Assembly (NCBI GenBank): GCA_944322835.1 | Contig: CALUQF010000003.1 | Coordinates: 1 to 36,087 of the forward strand | From: Candidatus Gastranaerophilales bacterium | Lineage (GTDB): Bacteria; Cyanobacteriota; Vampirovibrionia; Gastranaerophilales; Gastranaerophilaceae | Direction of reading: 5' to 3' | Length of the DNA stretch: 36,087 bases | Part shown: in pieces, positions 29,618-36,087 of the stretch | How the letters are laid out: each line of letters starts with the position of its first letter | Position numbering within the stretch: position 1 is the first letter of the stretch | Position numbers and translations under genes: made by a program | Notes under the pieces: model-generated | What the model saw: only the letters and a program-made list of their open reading frames with translations | What the model was told of the DNA's origin: nothing | Databases searched by the model: none

Positions 29618-30424
29618 TTAATATGTTATTTTATATCCTTCTGATATAACCCGAGCAGTACAAGCATACCCATTCCAGCTGATATTTCCATTTACTGGAC
29701 ATGTATTTTCCCAAGATCTTGTACCAGGGTCAAAAACTACAGAATCTAATCCACCTACAGGATATAGAATCCCATTCTCTCCAAGGTAAAAATAAAACAA
29801 ATCACGACCAATTACATTGGGAGCACTTGCACCGTTTACATCAATAACAACTGCAGCTGCTTGATTAAATAATGAACCGCCTTGATTTATAATATTTCTT
29901 CTTGTGGCTTCTGTCGGATTTTGATCTCTACAAGGAGCAATGAAAATAGCTGCTCCATTTTTCATTTCAATAACGTGATTTGTTCCAATACCCAAATTTG
30001 GGTCTCTTGCCATTACATTAATAACATCATCAGAAGATTCATCGTCACGTGTTCCATTTTCGTCCATCCCTGCGGGTAAAGGTTGCCCGGCGTAGTATTC
30101 TCGGATCATATCAGCCCCGTCTCCATCGTCTTCATGCGGAAGCCTTGAACCATTAATATGCATAAACCTTCCTATATTACCTGCAAAAGCTCTTCTATTA
30201 TCAACTTGGGCCCAGGCTTGCGTTTGAAACATATTATCAACCCCTTCACTTATAATCATATTTGTAAATGCATTTTCTAAATTTGAGATTGACACAGAAA
30301 GTTTAGCAGCATTGGCTTCATTTCTGCTGCTCATAACCAAAGCTGGCGCAGTGAGTGCAGCTACAACACCTATAATTCCAAGTGTAATCAATACTTCAGC
30401 CAACGTGAATCCAGATTTTTTCAT
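29618..30424 (-). CDS. Type IV pilin/pseudopilin-like prepilin (paralogue 1)
   Basis: 268 residues starting MKKSGFTLAEVLITLG: a class III/IV signal cut by prepilin peptidase between Gly and Phe, with Glu5 of the mature form and a hydrophobic N-terminal helix (IIGVVAALTAPALV). The globular part ends with two Cys in NTCPVNG..YACTARVISEGY, likely a disulfide-closed D-loop, and has VVIDVNGASAPNVIGRDLF shared with the paralogue at 30880-31725. ATG 30424 was chosen over an earlier in-frame start for TAGGAGAG upstream and the family N-terminus. The assembly machinery is not in the window. Confidence 0.9.
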   Translation of the reverse strand: MKKSGFTLAEVLITLGIIGVVAALTAPALVMSSRNEANAAKLSVSISNLENAFTNMIISEGVDNMFQTQAWAQVDNRRAFAGNIGRFMHINGSRLPHEDDGDGADMIREYYAGQPLPAGMDENGTRDDESSDDVINVMARDPNLGIGTNHVIEMKNGAAIFIAPCRDQNPTEATRRNIINQGGSLFNQAAAVVIDVNGASAPNVIGRDLFYFYLGENGILYPVGGLDSVVFDPGTRSWENTCPVNGNISWNGYACTARVISEGYKITY

Positions 30425-30443
30425 AAAAGCTCTCCTATAAAGT

Positions 30444-30475
30444 GTTACATTGAATGTAACATAATACATATTGTG
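30444..30475 (-). promoter_or_regulatory. Dyad element upstream of prepilin 1
   Basis: GTTACATT-G-AATGTAAC (30444-30460) overlaps GTAACATAATACATATTGTG (30456-30475). The reverse complement of the latter, CACAATATGTATTATGTTAC, is identical to the sequence before the plus-strand prepilin. It lies 20-51 bp before the start. Confidence 0.6.
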
Positions 30476-30879: not shown

Positions 30880-31725
30880 ATGAAAAAAATCGGATTTACT
30901 TTGGCGGAAGTATTGATTACACTTGGAATTATAGGTGTTGTAGCAGCACTTACTGCGCCAGCTTTGGTTATGAGCAGCAGAAACCAGGCCAATGCTGCCA
31001 AATTGTCGGTTGCTGTTTCAAATCTCGAAAATGCTCTACAGAATATGTTGGTAACAGAAAATGTTGACACTTTATTCCAAACAAGAGCTTGGCAAAACGC
31101 AGGTAATCGTCCAGCATTTGCTGGTAATATTGGACAACATATGCGAATAAATGGCTATCGAGGAATTGCTGGTGAACAATCGGAGGCCGAGGCTGGAGGG
31201 GGAAATTTAGTTCGTCAATATTATGGGGCTAATAACCTTCCTAGTCGTATGACAGCTGATGGTGCTAAAGATATGACGGAGGCAGCTAACAATGATGTAA
31301 CAAATACTATGGGACGCGCACCTCAAGGCAATGCTGGGGTTAATCATATTATTGAAGCAAAAAATGGTGTAGTATACTTTTTCACTCCAAATGTTAACGT
31401 AAACCCTACACAAGCAGAAAAGGATAACATAATAGCACAAGGCGGAGCATTATTTAATGAAGCTGCTGATGTATATATCGATGTTAATGGTCAATCGGCG
31501 CCGAATACTTTAGGACGTGATATCTTTGCATTTTATCTTGGAGACGACGGAATAATGTATCCAATAGGTGGCCTTGATGTATCTATTTTAGATAACCACG
31601 GAAATACCGACATGTGGAATACTGCAGGAGCAGATAGTAACCGAAATTGCCGGGATGGTTCAATTAATCAGGGTTATGGCTGTACCGCGAGAGTAATTGC
31701 TGAAGGATATCAAATGAATTATTAA
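30880..31725 (+). CDS. Type IV pilin/pseudopilin-like prepilin (paralogue 2)
   Basis: 281 residues with MKKIGFTLAEVLITLG, the same prepilin-peptidase site and hydrophobic helix as paralogue 1. The alignment continues throughout: MSSRN(Q/E)ANAAKLSV, NLENA, INQGG/IAQGGALFN, IDVNGQSAPNTLGRD and the C-terminal YGCTARVIAEGYQMNY. The central region (~95-175) is the most divergent and probably forms the exposed face. Two Cys near the end match the likely D-loop disulfide. The start has GAGAGGA upstream, and the gene ends in a strong terminator. It is transcribed divergently from paralogue 1. Confidence 0.92.
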   Translation: MKKIGFTLAEVLITLGIIGVVAALTAPALVMSSRNQANAAKLSVAVSNLENALQNMLVTENVDTLFQTRAWQNAGNRPAFAGNIGQHMRINGYRGIAGEQSEAEAGGGNLVRQYYGANNLPSRMTADGAKDMTEAANNDVTNTMGRAPQGNAGVNHIIEAKNGVVYFFTPNVNVNPTQAEKDNIIAQGGALFNEAADVYIDVNGQSAPNTLGRDIFAFYLGDDGIMYPIGGLDVSILDNHGNTDMWNTAGADSNRNCRDGSINQGYGCTARVIAEGYQMNY

Positions 31726-31784: not shown

Positions 31785-31807
31785 ATAAATTTTTGAAAAC
31801 TCCAAAA

Positions 31808-32293
31808 AGTCAGGTAGGGTGGGCAAAGTCTCTTTATTATAGGTATTTTAAATTATTTTATGTATGGCGTGCCCACCGATTAATTTTTGATTTAAGTTTA
31901 TGGTGGGCACGCTGTACCAAGTTAAAACCAATTATTTGTAATTTAATGTAGCTTTGCCCACACTACCTAACTTCACTGCCAAAATATTCACACTTAATGT
32001 CTTCCATCTTATTCTCTCCTTTCTAAGCTAACTCATTAGGTATTGCATAAAGTCAGGTAGGGTGGGCAAAGTCTCTTTATTATAGGTATTTTAAATTATT
32101 TTATGTATGGCGTGCCCACCGATTAATTTTTGATTTAAGTTTATGGTGGGCACGCTGTACCAAGTTAAAACCAATTATTTGTAATTTAATGTAGCTTTGC
32201 CCACACTACCTGACTTCACTGCCAAAATATTCACACTTAATGTTTTCCATCTTATTCTCTCCTTTCTAAGCTAACTCATTAGGTATTGCATAA
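31808..32293. repeat. Tandem duplication of a 243-bp unit containing a MITE-like element
   Basis: Two head-to-tail units (31808-32050, 32051-32293) that differ at only two positions I could see. Each unit holds a 163-bp element (31809-31971, 32052-32214) with 20-bp terminal inverted repeats (GTCAGGTAGGGTGGGCAAAG / CTTTGCCCACACTACCTAAC) and inner arms GCGTGCCCACC / GGTGGGCACGC. Each also carries an 80-bp tail whose last 28 bp are the final codons and stop of the adjacent FkbM gene. AAAGT occurs at all three junctions, fitting microhomology-driven duplication. No transposase is encoded. Confidence 0.88.
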
Positions 32294-33408
32294 AGTACGG
32301 TTTCTGATGAAGTTTCAGAATAATGCCCAAGTCTGAATTTATAGTTTTCCAGATTTTCTTGTAAATAAAGCGGAATAGTAATTAAGTCTTTCCCTTCCTG
32401 ATGATAAATTGAAATTGCAAGTTGCGGACGGCATTTTTTTATTGTTTCAATTCCGCCTTGGAGGGCGGAAAGTTCTGCCCCTTCTATATCCATTTTGATG
32501 AAATCCGGTATAATGTTTTTATCATTACAAAAAGTATCTATAGTTGTAACATCTACTATTCGGCAATTCCATTCATCAGAATCTTTAGGAAGTGTTTTTT
32601 CTGTTATATCTTCTCCAAAAGAACACCAAGCAAAAGACTTATTTATATAGAAATTGATTTTTTGATTTTTAGCACCTAAAGCAAACGGAATAATTTCAAA
32701 CTTATCTTTAGGAAGAAATTGCTCAATATAAGGATTTCTTGTTATGTCGTATATTGCTTCAAATCCATATATTTTTTCAACATTAGGAAGAAGCTTATTA
32801 AAAGCAATAACATTGATTCCATCATATGCTCCTGCATCAAAAACCGTTTTTATAGCATTCTTATTTATTTTTTCCAAATATTGTTTTCTAAAAACACGAT
32901 TAGTTTTATATTTTTGTGCCACATTAGTATAATAATGATGTTTATAAAAATCCGGTTCCAAGATTTTGATTCTTGTTTTTACAATATTTTGAAACAACTC
33001 CTTGTCTTCTGTTTTGTCAAATATTTCGACCGCCTTATTGAACCTCTCATCATTGAAAGTACTTAAATTATTCCTATAATAATTACTAACAAATTCTGTC
33101 TGCTTAATAACCGGAATATCGTACAGATCTAAAATATTGATAGTAACATTTTGATCATTTGTTGTAGACATTAAAACTGTTACATCTTCTTGTTTTTTGT
33201 CAACAAATTCTTTTAAACTCCATACCGGAAAACCTTGAAAAGAGCCTTTTACATTATTATCAATAAATCCTAAAATTTTATTGTTTGGTTTTATATTTAA
33301 TAAGTCTTTTAAAATTTTTTCCCCTGTTATATTAGCACCAAATATTACTATATTTGTTTGGCTCGTAATTTTATCAAATAAATCTATATACAACTGCTTT
33401 TTTATCAT
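32266..33408 (-). CDS. FkbM-family methyltransferase with N-terminal Rossmann-like module
   Basis: 380 residues. Residues ~18-100 form a Rossmann-like module (VIFGANITGEKIL, ILGFIDNN, then VPV strand), related to modules in the next two genes. Residues ~186-335 are an FkbM SAM-dependent methyltransferase: motif I DAGAYDGIN (191-199), GFEAIYD, ALGAKNQKINFY, VDVTTIDTF and DFIKMDIEGAE (302-312). FkbM enzymes O-methylate sugars or polyketides; the glycosyltransferase neighbours point to glycan methylation. AGAGGGAAG precedes the ATG. The 3' end is duplicated in the tandem repeat downstream. Confidence 0.9.
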   Translation of the reverse strand: MIKKQLYIDLFDKITSQTNIVIFGANITGEKILKDLLNIKPNNKILGFIDNNVKGSFQGFPVWSLKEFVDKKQEDVTVLMSTTNDQNVTINILDLYDIPVIKQTEFVSNYYRNNLSTFNDERFNKAVEIFDKTEDKELFQNIVKTRIKILEPDFYKHHYYTNVAQKYKTNRVFRKQYLEKINKNAIKTVFDAGAYDGINVIAFNKLLPNVEKIYGFEAIYDITRNPYIEQFLPKDKFEIIPFALGAKNQKINFYINKSFAWCSFGEDITEKTLPKDSDEWNCRIVDVTTIDTFCNDKNIIPDFIKMDIEGAELSALQGGIETIKKCRPQLAISIYHQEGKDLITIPLYLQENLENYKFRLGHYSETSSETVLYAIPNELA

Positions 33409-33430
33409 AAACTTCCCTCTTTTAACCTAA

Positions 33431-35449
33431 TTATACCCATTCATGTATATCCTTTTTTGAAATTTCCCAGCATTCTCCGTAAATTCGTCTTTTTACATCA
33501 CAATATTTGCAAAATGGTATTGGAGATGCCAAAAATTTCAATATTTCTTTTTCAGATTTTGCTTTATGAATGTCAATCCCATCTTGATTTGTAAGTGGAA
33601 TGTTGTATCCAAAATATTTATTGAAGTGTTCAATATTAGGCGCTATAGCACAGGTATAAAGCCGTCCGTCTTTTAAAAATATGCATCTGTTTGCACATTC
33701 ACAATGTTTAAAACTGGAAGACTTGTTCTGTTTGCCCGCAGTATCAAGAATATACAAGTTACTGGTTTTGTTAACTTGTCCCGTATTACAAAAATATCCA
33801 TACTCTACATCATATTTTTCTGCAAGATGTTCAATCTTGTTAAAATCAATATTTATCGGATATTTAGTTACTTCAATAGCGATATTATATTTATTACAAG
33901 CTTTCCAAAACTCTTCTTTTTGAGTTGGTAAAAGAATACCGTTTGTTAAAATTATTATTCTTGTATTTGGTAAATTTAGGCGGGATAACCTTAAAAATTC
34001 GATTAAATCCGGGTGTAATAAGGGTTCTCCGCCGATTAAATAAACTCTCTTTAGTTCATTATCAGTTAATTCTGCAATTCTTTTTATGTCACGCTCATAA
34101 GTTTTAATATCTGCAAACTTTTTCTCTGCAAGCGGAGAAAAGTTGTTACACCCTTTACAATTTAAATTGCAATGTTCAGCAAGATGTATCGAGAAACGTT
34201 CCAGTCTTAATAATGGTACGGTTTGTTTATGTTTAGCTTCAAGTGAAAAAGCGTTTTTAAGAAGCTGTATATCCGGCAAATTCTCTTCAATATATTCTTT
34301 GATTTGAGTATAAGCATCATTATGTTTAATTGTGCAAATAACTGATTGTACATTAAGTTCTTTAATTTGTGCCGGCGGATAAATGGTAAATCCGCCAAGC
34401 TGTTTACCCCATTTCCTTGAATCATTATCAATAATTCCTACAATATTTTTATCCCGAATATTGTATTTCTGTATAAAAGCTTCTAAAAATAAGCTGGCTC
34501 CCCAAAATACCAGCCTTTTATGTTTATTTAATATAATTTGTTTTAATATTCTGAAATCATCTAGTAGTACAACAAGAACATCAGGCATAAAAAGTGCTGT
34601 TTTTATCAAAAATTGCTTTTTAATTTTTTTATATTCTTTGCTTTCTACAATTCCTTTTACATAGGACAGAAACCTCTCATTATAAAGGTCATATAATTTA
34701 TTGTTTTTCAAATAATCATGTATTAATTTGACAATTTCAATATGATCAAAAAGTCCTTTATTTTCATTATGCAATTTATACATTACAGATGAAGAATTTA
34801 TAATTCTATAATACAGATACTCGTTTATATAGTAGAAATTACTTACGTATGGCATATAAAACCAATAGAATGCCACATCTTCATGAATTAAATTTTCAGG
34901 AAACCTAATTTTATATTTTTCTATAATGCTTCTCTTATATAATTTGGCGACAGGACCTAACCTCAAAATTTTAAAATACTGGTCGAAACAGTAAAATCCT
35001 GTATTTAACTCCGTAGCTTTATAGTTCAGCCTGTCTTTCAGACTCACCAAATTCTTATTATCTTTATCTAATATTATATTCTCAACACTTGTTATGACCA
35101 GATCGCAAAAATTTCTTTCCGCCTTCTTATACATTTTTTCCAAAAGTGTTTCTTCTACATAATCATCTGCATCTATAAATGTAATATATTTACCTCTGGC
35201 AATATCTAATCCGGCATTTCTGGCTGCTCCTTGTTTTTTATTTTTATCAAAAAATATAGCTTTAATTCTGGAATCTTTTCTTGCGAAATTATTTAAAATT
35301 TCTTTTGAATTATCCGTGGAACAGTCATCAACACAAATAATTTCAATATCATTAAAAGTTTGGGCTATAACACTATCCAAACACTTCTCCAAATATTTTT
35401 CAGCATTAAAAATTGGTATTATAACAGAAATCTGCGGGCTATTATTCAT
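33431..35449 (-). CDS. Three-domain protein: GT2 glycosyltransferase, Rossmann-like module, radical SAM
   Basis: 672 residues. Residues ~5-225 are a family 2 glycosyltransferase: ISVIIPIFNAEKYLEKCL, ICVDDCSTD, FIDADD (91-96, metal site) and IHEDVAFYW. Residues ~310-400 are a Rossmann-like module (LVFWGASLF at 313-321, VGIIDND, FTIYPPAQI). Residues ~415-665 are a radical SAM domain with CNLNCKGC (Cys427, Cys431, Cys434 bind the 4Fe-4S/SAM), GGEP (473-476) and further Cys near the C-terminus (CECANRC, CAI, CKYCD) that may hold a second cluster. ATG 35449 was chosen for GAGGGAG upstream. It overlaps the preceding GT2 gene by eight bases. Probably modifies or assembles surface glycan; the radical SAM reaction is unknown. 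Confidence 0.85.
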   Translation of the reverse strand: MNNSPQISVIIPIFNAEKYLEKCLDSVIAQTFNDIEIICVDDCSTDNSKEILNNFARKDSRIKAIFFDKNKKQGAARNAGLDIARGKYITFIDADDYVEETLLEKMYKKAERNFCDLVITSVENIILDKDNKNLVSLKDRLNYKATELNTGFYCFDQYFKILRLGPVAKLYKRSIIEKYKIRFPENLIHEDVAFYWFYMPYVSNFYYINEYLYYRIINSSSVMYKLHNENKGLFDHIEIVKLIHDYLKNNKLYDLYNERFLSYVKGIVESKEYKKIKKQFLIKTALFMPDVLVVLLDDFRILKQIILNKHKRLVFWGASLFLEAFIQKYNIRDKNIVGIIDNDSRKWGKQLGGFTIYPPAQIKELNVQSVICTIKHNDAYTQIKEYIEENLPDIQLLKNAFSLEAKHKQTVPLLRLERFSIHLAEHCNLNCKGCNNFSPLAEKKFADIKTYERDIKRIAELTDNELKRVYLIGGEPLLHPDLIEFLRLSRLNLPNTRIIILTNGILLPTQKEEFWKACNKYNIAIEVTKYPINIDFNKIEHLAEKYDVEYGYFCNTGQVNKTSNLYILDTAGKQNKSSSFKHCECANRCIFLKDGRLYTCAIAPNIEHFNKYFGYNIPLTNQDGIDIHKAKSEKEILKFLASPIPFCKYCDVKRRIYGECWEISKKDIHEWV

Positions 35450-36087
35450 AAACAATTTCTCCCTCAAAAATATTCGGTAAAAGCTCTATATTTGGATAAT
35501 TCATTTTAAATTCTTTTTGTAATGACTCATATATTGTTTCATTATTCGATAAAACGGTTAAAATTACTGCATCAGGGCATAAGTCATTAAGAGCCTGCGG
35601 CGGGTAAATAGTATAGTTACAGAAGGATTTTCCGGCAGAAGCTGTATTCCTGTCAATTATCCCTAAAATATTTGGATTCTTCTTTGTTTCTTTCTCCAAC
35701 ACCTGTTTAATAAATAAACTTGCTCCCCAAAGCATGACCTTCCTATCTCCTATTAATTTATTTAAATACTCTGGTGTTATATAATCTTTTCTTAAAGCAG
35801 ATTGAAATAATCTCCAATCTTCCGGCATTAATGTTTTAAGGTCTTTTATAAACTTTTGATATTGTTCGTCATTACAATGGCTGATTTCCCAGCTTATATG
35901 CATTTTTATTGCTTTTATATAACTCTTTTTTAATTCTTCAAAAAATCCTCTCTCTTGCAAAAACTTACGAATTTCCAGAGCTGCATAAATAATATTTTCT
36001 GCACATTTGGCTCTAAATTGTGTAATACTTCCACTTCTTCCACAGCGGTAATTAACTAGTTCTTTGTTAAATACAACAATTCTCTTT
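35442..36087 (-). CDS. GT2-type glycosyltransferase C-terminal part with Rossmann-like module (runs off the window)
   Basis: The reading frame is open to the window edge, so the TTG at 35960 is not the real start. The edge-proximal part (FNKELVNYRCGRSGSITQ) matches the tail of GT2 glycosyltransferases, where a PL..YR...S.(T/S) pattern is usual. A helical linker follows, then the module LWGASLFIKQVL, NILGIIDRN, YTIYPPQAL, clearly homologous to residues ~310-400 of the next gene. The catalytic domain lies outside the window. It is translationally coupled (8-bp overlap) to the radical SAM fusion, suggesting one glycan pathway. Confidence 0.8.
   Translation of the reverse strand, partial: KRIVVFNKELVNYRCGRSGSITQFRAKCAENIIYAALEIRKFLQERGFFEELKKSYIKAIKMHISWEISHCNDEQYQKFIKDLKTLMPEDWRLFQSALRKDYITPEYLNKLIGDRKVMLWGASLFIKQVLEKETKKNPNILGIIDRNTASAGKSFCNYTIYPPQALNDLCPDAVILTVLSNNETIYESLQKEFKMNYPNIELLPNIFEGEIVYE

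Follow-up and report, generated by a model that had tools for sequence, protein, structure and literature searches.

Can one polypeptide truly unite a radical SAM (rSAM) domain with a glycosyltransferase and a Rossmann-like module, and which reaction would such a protein catalyze? The question is raised by an open reading frame in the window, i.e. the whole stretch of 36,087 nucleotides of Candidatus Gastranaerophilales DNA that was analysed, for which a first-pass annotation had described a 672-residue chain combining a family 2 glycosyltransferase (GT2) with these two other parts. The description is confirmed. The ORF is open from its ATG to its stop codon with no internal stop, its length is far beyond chance expectation and its three domains follow each other in one frame, with no missed stop or frameshift between them on inspection of the sequence. 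An alternative TTG start 18 nt upstream of the ATG would yield a protein of 678 aa, and the gene shares its first 8 nt with the end of the gene upstream of it. Domain searches with Pfam matched Glycos_transf_2, Radical_SAM and Fer4_12, and all the cluster-ligand cysteines are present in the sequence. The coordinates of all features are collected in Table 1.

Another genome of the genus (G012) encodes the same GT2-Rossmann-rSAM chain, with 56% identity over the whole chain (672-678 aa). In both genomes the fusion gene is the second of a three-gene cassette, between a GT2-Rossmann gene and a Rossmann-FkbM methyltransferase gene. Since both the set of three domains and the three-gene cassette recur in this relative, the fusion is not an assembly artefact. 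The genome assembly is fragmented (212 contigs) and a clearly odd ORF joining an MmeI-type restriction N-terminus to an rSAM domain occurs in another metagenome-assembled genome, but a chimera, a missed stop or a frameshift is exceedingly improbable for an architecture and a gene order that recur in a second genome, with every domain in one stop-free frame. The odd ORF itself (L107, 4717-6762, from a Synergistaceae genome) was not accepted as a genuine fusion because its junction lies in a possibly shared YGIEI stretch and it was encountered a single time; it is probably a misassembly.

The three-domain fusion is thus real, and it is also rare. Of the 65 genomes of the genus, 2 encode the trio, and 2 of the 111 sampled members of the rSAM family have this architecture. 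A sample of 386 genomes from the phylum yielded no further case. These counts are in line with the earlier description of the trio as uncommon. A survey of domain order in relatives recovered the trio order in G012, and the rSAM tree, much of whose backbone is weakly supported, places the trio at a single origin (support 96).

The surroundings of the cassette differ between the two genomes: prepilin-like genes lie downstream in the window, and an upstream fragment in G012 was read as restriction-enzyme-like. Flagellar genes are common to both contigs, at different distances from the cassette. At 29%, the GC content of the cassette (32266-36087) is below the 36% found elsewhere in the window, which suggests acquisition by horizontal transfer. 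Two similar, divergent prepilin-like genes (29618-30469 and 30880-31725), starting SGFTLAEVLITLGIIGVVAALTAPALVMSSRN and IGFTLAEVLITLGIIGVVAALTAPALVMSSRN, respectively, adjoin the cassette. At its 3' end, positions 31803-32288 hold a MITE-like element with terminal inverted repeats of 22 bp, duplicated in tandem as 243-bp units that are 99% identical. The second unit extends into the final codons of the FkbM gene, and about 10 further copies of the element, with 77-91% identity, are present in the genome.

Table 1. Features of the fusion gene and its cassette (positions in the window; residues are those of the fusion protein)
Feature	Position	Strand	Basis
Upstream GT2-Rossmann gene, C-terminal part, cut by the contig end	35442..36087	minus	full-length 427-aa counterpart in L049
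GT2 - Rossmann - twitch radical SAM fusion ORF, 672 aa	33431..35449	minus	ORF and Pfam; architecture also in G012:C38
GT2 glycosyltransferase domain, residues ~6-255; DADD 93-96, HED 189-191	34685..35434	minus	Pfam and home-made GT2 HMM
Rossmann-like module, residues ~311-390; WGAS 316, GIIDN 338; Methyltransf_14 C-terminal-domain-like	34280..34519	minus	relatives' Pfam, AF2, Foldseek
Radical SAM and twitch domain, residues ~415-672	33434..34207	minus	Pfam, Foldseek SpeY/BtrN, family alignment
CX3CX2C, C427/C431/C434, predicted SAM-binding [4Fe-4S] ligands	34148..34171	minus	kept in 110, 111 and 111 of 111
GGEP motif, residues 473-476	34022..34033	minus	family alignment
C583-x11-G595-x4-C600, predicted auxiliary cluster ligands 1 and 2 of the twitch domain	33650..33703	minus	111/111 invariant; signature PMC6231123
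Codon of C589, the predicted H-atom donor, at the alignment position of Cys183 in the inferred HygY orthologue	33683..33685	minus	105/111 and alignments
C647-x2-C650, last two twitch ligands	33500..33511	minus	111/111
Rossmann - FkbM methyltransferase, last cassette gene	32266..33408	minus	Methyltransf_21 E=3e-19; counterpart L043 8915-10078

The N-terminal part of the fusion is a complete GT2 domain. It matches Glycos_transf_2 over residues 8-174 (E=2.5e-42) and carries the acidic DxD-type motif as DADD. Both traits are shared with the PglI-, TuaG- and EpsE-like GT2 enzymes of surface polysaccharide and glycoprotein pathways, although the scores of the fusion against the equivalog models are all far below cut-off. 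The GT2 part of a full-length AlphaFold model is mostly below pLDDT 50, so that no usable orientation of the domains could be drawn from it.

The middle module of the fusion has no Pfam match of its own, but relatives of the module (in L032, L033 and L020) score above the cut-off of PF08484 (Methyltransf_14). Modelled alone with AlphaFold, it reaches a mean pLDDT of 95, and in Foldseek the model is similar to Rossmann domains of the Rex type and to the C3-methyltransferase KijD1. The likeness to the NAD(H)-binding domain of Rex is one of fold only (E ~1e-4). The model superposes on KijD1, an example of the C-methyltransferases with a PF08484 C-terminal domain, with an rmsd of 2.7-2.8 and a TMq of 0.66-0.67; unlike C-methyltransferases of the KijD1 type, the fusion chain has no methyltransferase domain. 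Each of the three cassette genes carries one such module, which is also borne by GT2, GT8, pyruvyl transferase, several methyltransferases and one rSAM-SPASM protein. By its distribution, the module appears to be a promiscuous Methyltransf_14-like add-on of many glycan enzymes, and our guess is that it serves as a shared docking, ligand-binding or ligand-sensing part of the glycan machinery and not as a catalyst. In two rSAM-SPASM proteins (L033, 1144-2745; L034, 742-2337; Pfam was run for L033), a Rossmann module is inserted between the rSAM core and the SPASM domain.

The C-terminal part matches Radical_SAM over residues 425-526 (E=1.4e-11) and Fer4_12 (E=2.1e-8). The family was represented by an alignment of 111 sampled rSAM relatives with a mean identity of 41%. 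Twitch domains follow the signature CX9-15GX4C ... CX2C, which ligates one auxiliary cluster (PMC6231123). The extra C-terminal cysteines pointed out by the first-pass annotation conform to it: C583, C600, C647 and C650 are invariant among the 111 aligned members and are not followed by the CX5CX3C..C continuation of a SPASM domain. The motifs thus identify the rSAM domain as twitch-type, with C427, C431 and C434 as predicted ligands of the rSAM cluster and C583, C600, C647 and C650 as those of the auxiliary cluster. A peptide (RiPP) maturase is not favoured, given a twitch domain rather than a SPASM domain and the glycan neighbours. Among the NCBIfam equivalogs, tungsten cofactor maturase, viperin, MoaA and NirJ gave matches to the rSAM core only, far below cut-off, and were rejected.

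The closest solved protein in both sequence and fold is SpeY, a twitch rSAM dehydrogenase (PDB 7WZV, 7WZX and 7X0B). It ranked first in Foldseek against solved structures (E=4.5e-13) and in a PDB profile search (E=4.7e-20). The second-best fold is BtrN (PDB 4M7T), a 2-deoxy-scyllo-inosamine dehydrogenase whose twitch domain has a fully ligated auxiliary cluster; it shows low identity to the rSAM domain of the fusion and belongs to an antibiotic pathway, without a glycosyltransferase. Both are rSAM dehydrogenases of aminoglycoside or aminocyclitol pathways. The rSAM domain could accordingly convert a hydroxyl group of a sugar or cyclitol into a ketone, as SpeY and BtrN do, in preparation for amination or another step, and the complete set of auxiliary ligands, as in BtrN, would suit this reaction. 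We consider it unlikely, since the three-gene cassette contains no aminotransferase or reductase and since SpeY, an unfused enzyme, has a serine at a position where 105 of the 111 family members have a cysteine.

This cysteine, C589 in the fusion, lies exactly 11 residues before C600 or its equivalent in 97 of the 105 members that keep it. A comparison with the hygromycin B enzyme HygY was made possible by searches of phages and plasmids for rSAM relatives, which returned distant matches only, one of them encoded on the plasmid NZ_CP016083.1 of Streptomyces sp. SAT1 (L161). Its gene adjoins one predicted to encode the hygromycin B phosphotransferase APH(7'')-Ia (95% identity), together with antibiotic-sugar genes, and because of this neighbourhood we infer that it is the orthologue of HygY. 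The hygromycin-B-type gene cluster lies at the end of the linear plasmid. HygY is presented, in the title of a reference listed in PMC10991966 and PMC10863075, as a twitch epimerase with latent dehydrogenase activity revealed on mutating one cysteine. The sequence of the inferred orthologue shares the CX3CX2C motif and the four twitch ligands with the fusion and has an additional, non-ligand cysteine, Cys183, which precedes the second auxiliary ligand, C194, by 11 residues. Two alignments obtained by different methods superpose Cys183 on C589, and the serine of SpeY falls at the same position within a gapless stretch of its alignment to the inferred orthologue. The cysteine mutated in HygY is presumably Cys183, acting as hydrogen donor.

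The alignment of C589 with Cys183, the serine of SpeY and the title of the HygY study therefore favour an epimerase over a dehydrogenase, and by this analogy the rSAM domain of the fusion is predicted to be a redox-neutral sugar epimerase. Identity of HygY and SpeY to the fusion is only about 22-26%, and the HygY sequence sits on a very long branch of the rSAM tree. HygY (~26%) is moreover a stand-alone antibiotic enzyme without a glycosyltransferase or a Rossmann domain, unlike the fusion. Another rSAM enzyme, the neomycin C epimerase NeoN, likewise epimerises a sugar in the assembled product with a cysteine, Cys249, as hydrogen donor (PMC10991966); the likeness to the fusion is drawn here from this description. 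Six of the 111 aligned members lack C589, so not all members of the family need be epimerases.

The functions of rSAM enzymes are hard to predict from sequence (PMC6231123), and the NCBIfam matches spread over many rSAM families, all far below cut-off. Other radical chemistry on the glycan, the lipid carrier or the aglycone, such as deoxygenation or C-C or C-S bond formation, would be in keeping with this spread. It is similarly improbable to a dehydrogenation, as the nearest structural and catalytic-residue matches are sugar-acting redox or epimerase enzymes and no precursor peptide was noted in the cassette.

A profile built from six relatives recovered at least 483 encoded rSAM relatives in public genomes, the best 79 of which include loci from Bacteroidota, Spirochaetota, Bacillota, Campylobacterota, Synergistota and others. 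Named isolates such as Desulfosporosinus hippei and Leyella lascolaii are among the carriers. At a threshold of 1e-20, the rSAM family is matched in 99 of the 383 genomes of the order. GT2- and GT8-rSAM fusions recur, and GT-rSAM fusions do so in this bacterial family. Of the 111 sampled members of the rSAM family, 11 are fused to a glycosyltransferase (four GT2-rSAM, three GT8-rSAM, two GT2-Rossmann-rSAM, one GT2-GT2-rSAM and one GT2-GT8-rSAM), and the fusion state changes seven times on the rSAM tree with its largely weakly supported backbone. The Rossmann module directly precedes the rSAM domain in three more members. Two of the fusions are longer than the trio, namely the GT2-GT2-rSAM protein (L157, 4507-7413, 968 aa) and the GT2-GT8-rSAM protein (L158, 4470-7730, 1086 aa). 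Unfused arrangements bring the same parts together. In a congener (G017), a stand-alone rSAM gene is immediately preceded by a separate GT2 gene, and a Lachnospiraceae contig (L111) carries a GT2-Rossmann and a Rossmann-rSAM gene in one run, i.e. a split trio in another phylum. Among the immediate co-directional neighbours of sampled rSAM genes, 23 of 82 are GT2 and 5 of 82 match Glycos_transf_1; the nearest relatives of the query are over-represented in this sample.

Most members, however, are stand-alone (84 of 111 have only a short N-terminal extension), as would be expected if the parts were fused for co-expression only, the GT2 and rSAM domains acting on different molecules or at different stages. 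This explanation appears quite improbable when two glycosyltransferase folds, GT2 and GT8, are found fused to the rSAM domain and the GT2/rSAM gene pair of G017 suggests coupled steps. The proposal of the first-pass annotation, that a surface glycan or glycolipid is transferred and radically modified by the same enzyme, fits the fusions and the glycosyltransferase-rich neighbourhoods; it left the radical reaction unspecified, for which the twitch ligands and the HygY-type cysteine are pointers to epimerisation.

With evenly balanced confidence, we propose that the fusion is a bifunctional glycan-tailoring enzyme in which GT2 transfer is combined with epimerisation by a HygY-like twitch rSAM domain. 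In the presumed order of steps, the GT2 domain would extend a growing surface glycan, its putative substrate, by a sugar taken from an activated donor. The cluster held by C427, C431 and C434 would then cleave SAM, and the 5'-deoxyadenosyl radical would abstract a hydrogen from a carbinol carbon, either in the newly added sugar or in an adjacent one. C589 would return a hydrogen to the opposite face, yielding a rare stereoisomer with no net oxidation, and the auxiliary cluster (C583, C600, C647 and C650) may help to re-reduce the thiyl radical. Together with the GT2-Rossmann protein and the Rossmann-FkbM methyltransferase, the cassette would install an epimerised, probably O-methylated sugar.

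In the textbook view of glycan assembly, most tailoring of sugars takes place before transfer, while they are still nucleotide sugars. Radical epimerases are known from a few antibiotics and peptides. Literature searches on GT-rSAM fusions, rSAM proteins of O-antigen loci and polysaccharide rSAM epimerases returned nothing relevant, and in them no report was found of a radical epimerase acting on a surface polysaccharide. The rSAM relatives look like a large unstudied enzyme family; many of them lie in sugar-polymer gene clusters, and in some a glycosyltransferase is part of the same chain. More tentatively than for the fusion itself, we suggest that this uncharacterised twitch rSAM family epimerises sugars in assembled surface glycans and that some gut Gastranaerophilales have welded the epimerase to the glycosyltransferase that deposits the sugar in question. 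If the prediction holds, C589 alone would directly discriminate epimerases from dehydrogenases. Beyond the rare fusion, the weightier finding is this predicted family of HygY-type epimerases tied to surface-glycan assembly. If true, rare sugar isomers would arise after transfer and not at the NDP-sugar stage, and glycan stereochemistry would be rewritten after transfer in many host-associated anaerobes (Bacteroidota, Spirochaetota, Lachnospiraceae, Campylobacterota and Melainabacteria).
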